A DNA stretch of 36,141 nucleotides from Candidatus Saccharimonadota bacterium (GTDB taxonomy: Bacteria > Patescibacteriota > Saccharimonadia > Saccharimonadales > Saccharimonadaceae), in the NCBI GenBank assembly GCA_017652765.1, contig JAGCAJ010000013.1, positions 1 through 36,141 of the forward strand, given 5' to 3'. The notes beneath the pieces are model-generated. The model saw only the letters and a program-made list of their open reading frames with translations, was not told the DNA's origin and searched no databases. Both the position numbers and the translations under genes were made by a program. This document shows positions 9,697 through 11,920 of this stretch, piece after piece; position 1 is the stretch's first letter; each line of letters opens with the position of its first letter.

Positions 9697-11040
9697 ATGT
9701 TTGTCGACACAGCAAAAGTTAGTGTAAAAGCCGGAAAAGGTGGCAACGGTGCCGTCTCTTTTCGCCACGAAATCTATATTCCCAAAGGTGGTCCAGACGG
9801 CGGAGATGGTGGCCGTGGTGGCTCCGTGATTTTTCGTGCCGACAAAGACACTAATACTCTTCTAGATTTCCGTTTTACCCCTATCCTCACCGCCGAAGAC
9901 GGCAAAAACGGCTCCGGCACTCGCTCTGCTGGCCGCTCCGGCAAGGATTTAATTGTTGATGTCCCTATCGGTACAATAGTCAAAAAAGAGGGAAATATCA
10001 TCGCCGATCTAACAGAGGACGGTCAGATTGCAATCATCGCTAAAGGTGGCGACGGTGGATTTGGTAATGCGCATTTTAAGAGTAGTGTCCGCCAAACCCC
10101 TAAATTTGCCGAACTCGGCGAGCCTGGCGAAGAGTTCGAAGCGGAACTAGAACTAAAACTCCTAGCCGACGTCGGCCTAGTCGGTCTGCCAAACGCCGGC
10201 AAATCTACTTTTCTCTCTGTTGTTTCTAATGCCAAGCCAGAAATCGCCGACTATCCGTTTACTACTATTACGCCTAACCTTGGCGTCGCCACGATTGACG
10301 GCCAAGATCTCCTAATCGCCGATATTCCGGGGCTTATCGAAGGCGCCTCCGAGGGTAAGGGTCTAGGCCACGATTTCTTGCGCCACGTCGATCGTACGGC
10401 AGCATTGCTCCATCTTGTCGATGTCTATTCCGACGACGCTGGCAAAGATTATCAGACTATCCGCCATGAGCTAGAAAAATATTCTGACTTAAAGGACCGC
10501 CCAGAAATCGTCGCCCTCACCAAGTGTGAAGGTCTAGACGAAGACATTATCAAAATGCAAACGGCTAGTATTTTGGCCATCAACCCCGACGCCCGCGTCT
10601 ATCACATTTCCTCCTCCGCCCACCAAGGCCTAGACGACTTGCTTAGGGCGTTGAGCGCCGAGTTGCAAAGTCCTTTCGGCAAACGTCTAGCGACAACGGG
10701 AGCGTCTGCGCAAGCTTCGCCCGTAACGACGGGCCGAAGCGAAGCGCGTTTGCCGAAAGGAGCTTTGAACTCGGCGCTCCCTGTAATAGAATTGTCTAAA
10801 GAAGCCGTCAGCGACTCATGGACTGTCGAGGCCGAGGACGACAAATTCATCGTCCGCGGCGCTAAAATCGAAAAATTTGCCCGCCGCACCGACTTCTCTA
10901 ATTACGCTTCTGTTAACCGTCTCCGCGACATCATGAAAAAAATGGGCATCCGCGCCGAACTTACTACTCGTGGCGCCAAAGATGACTCCATCATCTCTAT
11001 CGCCGGCCACGAATTCACCCTCGTCGAAGAAGACTGGTAA
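9697..11040 (+). CDS. obg: GTPase Obg (ribosome assembly), with in-frame palindrome insert
   Basis: The 447-residue protein has the glycine-rich Obg fold (1-157), a G domain (158-315) and a C-terminal OCT domain (about 375-447). G1 is GLPNAGKS (163-170), G3 DIPG (209-212) and G5 SSSAHQG. G4 reads TKCE (275-278) rather than NKxD. Obg binds the 50S subunit and links ribosome maturation to growth. Residues 320-361, between the G and OCT domains, are encoded wholly by a long inverted repeat (10654-10778). Its cores also occur between genes at 24204-24254, so this segment is an inserted element kept in frame. The first and last parts of the protein are otherwise full length. Confidence 0.95.
   Translation: MFVDTAKVSVKAGKGGNGAVSFRHEIYIPKGGPDGGDGGRGGSVIFRADKDTNTLLDFRFTPILTAEDGKNGSGTRSAGRSGKDLIVDVPIGTIVKKEGNIIADLTEDGQIAIIAKGGDGGFGNAHFKSSVRQTPKFAELGEPGEEFEAELELKLLADVGLVGLPNAGKSTFLSVVSNAKPEIADYPFTTITPNLGVATIDGQDLLIADIPGLIEGASEGKGLGHDFLRHVDRTAALLHLVDVYSDDAGKDYQTIRHELEKYSDLKDRPEIVALTKCEGLDEDIIKMQTASILAINPDARVYHISSSAHQGLDDLLRALSAELQSPFGKRLATTGASAQASPVTTGRSEARLPKGALNSALPVIELSKEAVSDSWTVEAEDDKFIVRGAKIEKFARRTDFSNYASVNRLRDIMKKMGIRAELTTRGAKDDSIISIAGHEFTLVEEDW
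10654..10778. repeat. Palindromic element, copy A, inserted in frame in obg
   Basis: The outer arms 10654-10685 and 10747-10778 (32 nt each) are near-perfect reverse complements. The inner part carries two cores found again at 24204-24254: a 24-nt core at 10686-10709 (starting TCTAGCGACAACGGGAGCG) and a 17-nt core at 10719-10735 (GCCCGTAACGACGGGCC). The second core is flanked by GCTTCG and CGAAGC, which form an inner stem. Outer and inner stems differ in sequence between the two copies but stay self-complementary in each. Confidence 0.85.
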
Positions 11041-11081
11041 CCCCCGCCAAGCCCACCCTCCCGCATTCGCCTCTGTTATTC

Positions 11082-11110
11082 TTGACTTTTACTCTGTTTT
11101 GTGCTATAAT
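11082..11110 (+). promoter_or_regulatory. Promoter of the 163-residue membrane protein
   Basis: TTGACT (11082-11087), a 17-nt spacer and TATAAT (11105-11110), with TTGTGC directly before the -10. A leader of about 35 nt with an AGGAGGT site follows. Confidence 0.8.
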
Positions 11111-11152
11111 GGAGTCATAGGTGGGTGTTCTTTAATTTTTAGGAGGTGTAGC

Positions 11153-11644
11153 ATGATTTTTGAAGTGATTTTAGCTATTGTTTTAGCATTCTGTACCGCA
11201 ACTTGCTTTGCGCTGGCCATCGGCCACAAAAAGCACCGCTTTACCAGGACTATCGTAGGTATCATCTTCCTGGTTTTTGCCTTTTATTTTCTCTATCATC
11301 TCGGCTATGATTATGGTTCTAATACTCCCAACGAGTACGCCGACATAGCCCCAGAGAAGGCTACGGTTAACCTGGCTTTTTATATCCAGGATGACCAGCC
11401 AGAGAGTGAAAGCTATTACCTAGAAATCACCAGCAAGGGAACATACAAGTTCTGCTATTTTCTAAACGACGGCGTTTCTATCGGCAAAATTGAGGCTCCA
11501 ACCGACAAATGCGAGCTCTTGCCTTCGGACGATGATTTACCTTATCGGGTAGAGATGTATAGAAAGGACAAACAGATTTACCTCTATCGTATCCACATCC
11601 CAGACAGCGCTAGCGCTATCCAATACGACACCGATGGCAAATAA
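11153..11644 (+). CDS. Hypothetical membrane protein, two TM segments
   Basis: This 163-residue protein is not recognised. It begins with two hydrophobic helices (about residues 2-23 and 31-52) joined by a short basic loop (GHKKHRFTR). A soluble C-terminal part of about 110 residues follows, rich in Tyr, Asp and Glu (for example ESESYYLEITSKGTYKFCYF). The AGGAGGT site at 11141-11147 fixes ATG 11153 as the start; the frame is open further upstream, but that stretch overlaps the end of obg and the promoter. A bidirectional terminator follows at 11656-11680. It appears to be a single-gene unit. Confidence 0.75.
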   Translation: MIFEVILAIVLAFCTATCFALAIGHKKHRFTRTIVGIIFLVFAFYFLYHLGYDYGSNTPNEYADIAPEKATVNLAFYIQDDQPESESYYLEITSKGTYKFCYFLNDGVSIGKIEAPTDKCELLPSDDDLPYRVEMYRKDKQIYLYRIHIPDSASAIQYDTDGK

Positions 11645-11653
11645 CACCCCTAT

Positions 11654-11808
11654 AAAAAAGACCGTGAATCACGGTCTTTTCTTTTGCGCTGAAGCGCGCC
11701 CACCCATGGGGCACATTGTTTTGTTTTAATCCGCTGTGTTTGTTTTTAATGTAAGTCTCCACACTCCACTAAATGTTCAGTGGAACCCCTGTGAAGCGTT
11801 TCAGCTTA
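11654..11808 (-). ncRNA. Candidate small RNA, unrecognised family
   Basis: On the minus strand a near-consensus promoter (TTGACA, 17 nt, TACAAT) faces a region with no gene. It ends about 155 nt later at a perfect hairpin followed by T residues on this strand. The predicted RNA starts near 11807. GCTGAA close to its 5' end can pair with TTCAGC near its 3' end, GGGG with CCCC just inside, and TCCACT with AGTGGA as a local hairpin. This gives one overall rod-like fold with internal bulges. No SRP, tmRNA or RNase P signature is seen. The rod shape and size are loosely like 6S RNA, but that is not established. No useful reading frame exists on this strand here. Confidence 0.45.
11656..11680. terminator. 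Bidirectional terminator
   Basis: AAAAGACCGTG (11656-11666) pairs perfectly with CACGGTCTTTT (11670-11680) around a 3-nt loop. It serves the membrane-protein gene on the plus strand and the candidate small RNA on the minus strand. Confidence 0.85.
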
Positions 11809-11813
11809 TGTTT

Positions 11814-11842
11814 ATTGTAATTTACAAAAAGGCTTTTGTCAA
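11814..11842 (-). promoter_or_regulatory. Minus-strand promoter of the candidate small RNA
   Basis: On the minus strand, a perfect TTGACA (11837-11842), a spacer of exactly 17 nt and TACAAT (11814-11819). No TG precedes the -10. There is no gene start downstream before the terminator. Confidence 0.7.
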
Positions 11843-11891: not shown

Positions 11892-11920
11892 TTGACATCA
11901 TAAAATAATAATGCTATAAT
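11892..11920 (+). promoter_or_regulatory. Promoter of the CHAP-like gene
   Basis: TTGACA (11892-11897), 17 nt, TATAAT (11915-11920) with TGC before the -10. It is the closest to full consensus in the window. Confidence 0.85.

Follow-up and report, generated by a model that had tools for sequence, protein, structure and literature searches.

Bacterial 6S RNAs are rods of about 150–230 nucleotides (nt) in which a large bubble in the middle is flanked by long arms; they bind the RNA polymerase holoenzyme and serve as template for a product RNA. Other structured bacterial RNAs, such as raiA, OLE and ROOL, are orphans of unknown or little-known function. Here we describe an RNA gene on the minus strand of a 36,141-nt stretch of DNA (the window) from a Candidatus Saccharimonadota bacterium (contig JAGCAJ010000013.1 of assembly GCA_017652765.1; the source genome, G000). 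The new RNA and 6S RNA (RF00013) are both free-standing, single-copy and promoter-driven; in each the ends are paired and an internal loop is present. The new RNA is, however, much shorter, and has an A-rich apical loop and an invariant GGUGGGC strand rather than a long promoter-like rod. The small bacterial signal recognition particle (SRP) RNA (RF00169) is comparable in size and is likewise single-copy, but no RF00169 match above the cut-off was obtained here. Like raiA, OLE and ROOL, the new RNA is autonomous, strongly covarying, clade-restricted and of unknown or poorly known function, whereas it differs from them in size and architecture and in lacking an Rfam match. No published description of it was found in the literature, and Saccharibacteria go unmentioned in the main text of three structured-RNA surveys (PMC8040213, PMC8632094, PMC11109978).

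Judging from the sequence, the existence of a conserved RNA gene at 11654–11842 (minus strand) is nearly certain. The gene opens with a sigma-70-type promoter at 11814–11842, in which the −35 box TTGACA (11842–11837) and the −10 box TACAAT (11819–11814) are separated by 17 nt and match 11 out of 12 consensus positions. It is closed by a putative intrinsic terminator at 11654–11680, consisting of the hairpin AAAAGACCGTG-ATT-CACGGTCTTTT at 11680–11656 followed by a T run to 11654, hairpin and run together reading AAAAGACCGTG-ATT-CACGGTCTTTTTT. The minus strand is gene-free in between. An automated terminator scan missed this hairpin, probably, to judge from the scan rule, because the stem extension takes in the T run. 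With its start placed from the −10 box and its end from the terminator, the predicted transcript is about 154 nt long (11654–11807, minus strand). Its folding energy is −53.6 kcal/mol, compared to −33.7 kcal/mol for dinucleotide shuffles (z = −5.7). An earlier interpretation made from the letters of the window (the sequence-only reading) had pointed out the orphan promoter and the hairpin terminator closing a gene-free region, and both are present. Its estimate of an RNA of about 155 nt holds for the predicted transcript, but the conserved core, as delimited by the covariance-model match, spans only 11688–11808 (minus strand) and stops short of the terminator, the sequence of which varies among homologues.

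A BLASTN search with a 211-bp query revealed the RNA in 56 out of 60 same-genus genomes and gave no match in 40 genomes of other families. Thirty aligned same-genus homologues have a mean column identity of 90% across approximately 120 nt; sequence variation is seen in the promoter spacer, in the flanks and in the terminator stem. A promoter matching at least 9 of 12 consensus positions is found at the same place in all 30, with a 17-nt spacer in 29, and the −10 box is always located exactly 5 nt ahead of the core. Terminators were recognized in 25 of the 30 using a strict script. The promoter–terminator pair described in the sequence-only reading is thus kept in near relatives, and its loss there, which that reading had named as grounds for refutation, is not what the homologues show.

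A first covariance model reached other genera, and a second model (R2) was built on 28 divergent members. The second model found one copy per genome in 313 out of 393 genomes of the order, Saccharimonadales. These homologues, of the covarying kind that the sequence-only reading had proposed to look for in Saccharibacteria, represent 118 of 156 genera and 25 families (the latter counted from the result table). The E-values of these models are rough, owing to a short calibration, and weak matches are lost to the strict filtering of the multi-genome searches. When the threshold was loosened, an additional, very weak second match appeared in a few genomes. The second model had no match in some 350 Patescibacteria genomes from other orders of the phylum. 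A search of GTDB contigs with a core pattern returned records titled almost exclusively Candidatus Saccharibacteria and a few labelled just "bacterium", and viral contigs contained no exact match to the pattern. Two GTDB-listed contigs carrying the RNA (L253 and L256) are titled Candidatus Nomurabacteria, and are possibly mis-titled Saccharibacteria. The core of the family is 73–123 nt long, with a median of 87. The usual form elsewhere in the order is approximately 84–98 nt and lacks the side hairpin seen in the genus of the window. The RNA constitutes a new family conserved across one order of Saccharibacteria (TM7), although small autonomous structured RNAs are as such a familiar format.

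The secondary structure was analysed using 94 members drawn from many families. Helix P1, of about 10 bp, pairs the 5' and 3' ends of the RNA; in the window its strands are GCTGAAACGC (11796–11805, minus strand) and GCGCTTCAGC (11688–11697, minus strand). Helix P3 is formed by GGGGT (11785–11789) and GCCCC (11708–11712), both on the minus strand. Double-sided changes were found at all 15 pairs, ten in P1 and five in P3. Altogether 92.7% of the alignment cells of P1 and P3 are paired, and 175 cells are changed on both sides, compared to 43 in shuffles. The covariation score is 0.421, against 0.137 in shuffled alignments, and sliding the partner strand brings it down to 0.066 or less. The alignment was fitted to the model structure, which somewhat favours P1 and P3; the margin is nonetheless large. 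At the level of sequence comparison the two helices are hence proven by covariation, and the pairing of GCTGAA with TTCAGC and of GGGG with CCCC in the sequence-only reading corresponds to real, covarying P1 and P3 pairs. Minimum free energy folds of single sequences are a poor guide, since P1 was recovered in 53 of the 94 members and P3 in 44, so that covariation is the evidence for these helices. In half of the sequences, pair 8/148 of P1 does not form. G-U wobbles in P1 and U-G wobbles in P3 (pairs 8/122 in alignment A1 and 27/127 in A4) fit an RNA transcribed from the minus strand, since the opposite strand would have A-C mismatches at these places.

P1 and P3 are set apart by an asymmetric internal loop, whose 5' strand usually has 4 nt and whose 3' strand usually has 8 nt. 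The longer strand, GGGUGGGC in the window (11698–11705, minus strand), contains GGUGGGC, which is invariant in 94 out of 94 homologues. The apical loop above P3 (31–76 nt) holds one to three copies, usually two, of an A-rich motif that mostly reads AAAACAAACA or AAAACAAAAA; 71 sequences have at least two copies, and the other 23 have one. In the window, motif 1 (AAAACAAACA, the commonest 10-mer at the motif among the 94 homologues) is located at 11737–11746 and motif 2 (AAAACAAAAC, identified by motif comparison of the homologues) at 11718–11727, both on the minus strand. The side hairpin (TCCACTGA/TTAGTGGA; 11765–11784, minus strand), predicted by folding, is confined to the genus of the window and its near relatives and is missing from the short form of other genera. 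Many families other than the window's own have a CACCC just 5' of the 3' strand of P3 that could pair with a GGGUG just 3' of it; in homologues such as L199, L213, L217 and L220 the hairpin around that strand reads CACCC-GCCGC-GGGUG. The hairpin competes with P3, which hints at a possible switch between two shapes, or else forms a tight pseudoknot with it.

The genomic surroundings were compared at the 94 loci. The downstream features vary, and include tRNA-Ala, CorA-like, pilin-like and Mur-ligase-like genes as well as genes on the opposite strand. tRNA-Ala is the first or second downstream feature at 54 loci (counted from the table), a CorA-like gene is a neighbour at seven, and ligA is located upstream on the same strand at 14 (recognized by eye from the sequence). 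No gene is constantly downstream. A terminator is present within 70 nt downstream at 80 of the 94 loci, compared to 11% of shuffled downstream sequences. As the neighbours vary, none is constant and most loci have a terminator, the RNA most likely acts in trans.

The RNA is best interpreted as a new family of autonomous, trans-acting structured RNAs, and we consider the chances about even that it serves, as the likeliest role, as a protein-binding scaffold or regulator through the GGUGGGC strand and the A-rich loop. The promoter is placed such that transcription would begin at helix P1, and the RNA's own terminator would usually end it. The unpaired GGUGGGC strand and the A-rich motifs may then form a binding surface for one or more proteins. 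This proposal is supported by the conservation pattern, as the strongest conservation falls in the predicted loops, where a binding surface would show it. The RNA could in this way serve as a housekeeping RNA, either as the scaffold of a ribonucleoprotein or as a decoy regulating an RNA-binding protein. A gene for an RRM-type RNA-binding protein is divergent from the RNA at 22 of the 94 loci and supplies a candidate partner. At loci of the same family as the window (e.g. L063, L065, L073, L144 and L174) this divergent gene encodes a glycine-rich RRM protein and is typically some 100–250 nt away.

Several results weigh against a protein-binding housekeeping RNA of this kind. The RRM protein gene of the same-family loci was not found in the source genome, and the protein was for this reason rejected as an obligate partner. 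Moreover, about 20% of the genomes of the order have no model match, among them the complete genome G094, where neither model R2 nor a structural descriptor search gave a credible copy. The RNA is consequently neither universal nor strictly indispensable, and the sequence comparisons indicate that loss or extreme divergence occurs in parts of the order.

Alternatively, the RNA could be a trans-acting small RNA that uses the invariant GGUGGGC as a seed for base-pairing with GCCCACC in messages or stable RNAs, which we regard as possible though doubtful. The seed is predicted to be single-stranded in the P1 and P3 fold, and in several families the upstream CACCC can sequester it, as is seen with regulated seeds. 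However, GCCCACC is not concentrated near the translation starts of the 595 open reading frames (ORFs) of the source genome, with three occurrences within 100 nt. Nor is it over-represented, as it occurs 55 times on both strands compared to approximately 90 expected from simple 7-mer arithmetic. The full 7-mer has no site in the 16S, 23S and 5S rRNA of E. coli, the rRNA used in this comparison; rRNA sequence patterns detected no rRNA in the source genome or in G094. Matches of tRNAs to the full seed are few (2 of 45). Complementarity between GGUGGG and CCCACC was seen in 7 of the 45 tRNAs and set aside, as it looks like chance and probably involves acceptor ends, where the stem is double-stranded. 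Protein binding by GGUGGGC is favoured because neither the target counts nor the E. coli rRNA give support to a general role in base-pairing.

That the RNA is a core housekeeping ribonucleoprotein RNA peculiar to Saccharibacteria, performing a general function by a mechanism without counterpart in other bacteria, appears unlikely. Such a function might, for example, be the control of transcription or translation, or protein targeting without a detectable SRP. The SRP system is apparently missing from the source genome and 60 relatives. The Ffh M domain (PF02978) was not found in the source genome, PF00448 gave only matches below the cut-off in 60 relatives of 25 genera whereas 14 of 14 control genomes were positive, and tblastn with E. 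coli Ffh gave no real match. SRP subunits are reported to be missing in many bacteria of the candidate phyla radiation (PMC8080830). RF00169 had no match in the source genome and none above the cut-off in 80 relatives. SRP RNA was rejected on the absence of both a model match and a detectable SRP protein. A divergent SRP RNA or an SRP replacement was weighed since RF00169 was silent, but Ffh and FtsY are undetectable too.

A free-standing aptamer or ribozyme, in which the GGUGGGC internal loop and the A-rich strands form a pocket, has in our estimate a slim chance. A strictly conserved asymmetric loop beside two covarying helices and A-rich strands does resemble the architecture of aptamers. 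On the other hand, there is no conserved downstream gene to control, most loci have their own terminator, and no Rfam ribozyme or riboswitch is matched. The Rfam search proposed in the sequence-only reading was run with Rfam 15 at gathering and permissive thresholds on the window and 39 homologous loci, and gave no credible match at this locus. Identity with RNase P RNA or tmRNA was also rejected, as separate genes for both are located elsewhere in the source genome (rnpB at G000:C18:61420-61766, tmRNA at G000:C18:64959-65314). The failure of the sequence-only reading to assign the RNA to SRP, tmRNA, RNase P or any riboswitch was therefore justified.

The same reading had offered two guesses, a divergent 6S-like decoy of RNA polymerase or something new, of which the second, given that no Rfam family matches, proved the better. 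A 6S RNA would sequester the polymerase by imitating an open promoter with its rod-like fold. The single copy, the strong promoter and the closing stem with an internal loop are in agreement with this, as is the failure of RF00013 to find any 6S RNA in the source genome at E ≤ 0.001 in a search that was positive in 5 of 14 controls. The homologues, however, show no similarity to RF00013 even at permissive E-values, and a core of 73–123 nt, closed by a stem of 10 bp and with an inner helix of 5 bp, is too short for a promoter-like rod. On model score, size and architecture we find a 6S RNA very improbable.

Least credible of all is a cis-acting leader or by-product of a neighbouring gene: five loci (L142, L162, L195, L200 and L206) have no terminator found and an ORF starting shortly downstream, but the genes downstream of such terminator-less loci are not the same from clade to clade. 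At most loci the RNA is followed by a terminator, an opposite-strand gene or a tRNA, and the next gene in the window is convergent. The changing neighbours largely refute this explanation, and the riboswitch or leader was rejected on the same variability and the terminators at 80 of 94 loci.

Saccharibacteria are ultra-small parasitic bacteria whose genomes do not exceed about 1 Mb and hold little that is dispensable. The reduced genomes of most of the order keep this single-copy RNA, with core sequence and structure under strong selection, suggesting that it is important. Identifying its partner could uncover a factor regulating the parasitic lifestyle, or novel core machinery in cells without a recognizable SRP or 6S RNA. 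Some members of the candidate phyla radiation that have been cultivated are Saccharibacteria, and functional study would be feasible if a cultivated strain carries the RNA.

The gene order in the window is obg, a DUF4131-like gene, the RNA, a gene without Pfam match, trmD and recG. The convergent gene, next in the direction of the RNA, is located at 10970–11644. The gene upstream of the RNA, from about 11943, is divergent and is the one without a Pfam match. It is faced by a plus-strand promoter at 11892–11920, TTGACA-17-TATAAT, which matches 12 out of 12 consensus positions and has a TG ahead of the −10 box. In two relatives, the Rfam families LOOT RNA and DUF3800-XI RNA were found near the RNA locus (L065:297-414 and L004:2292-2339, respectively, both on the minus strand).
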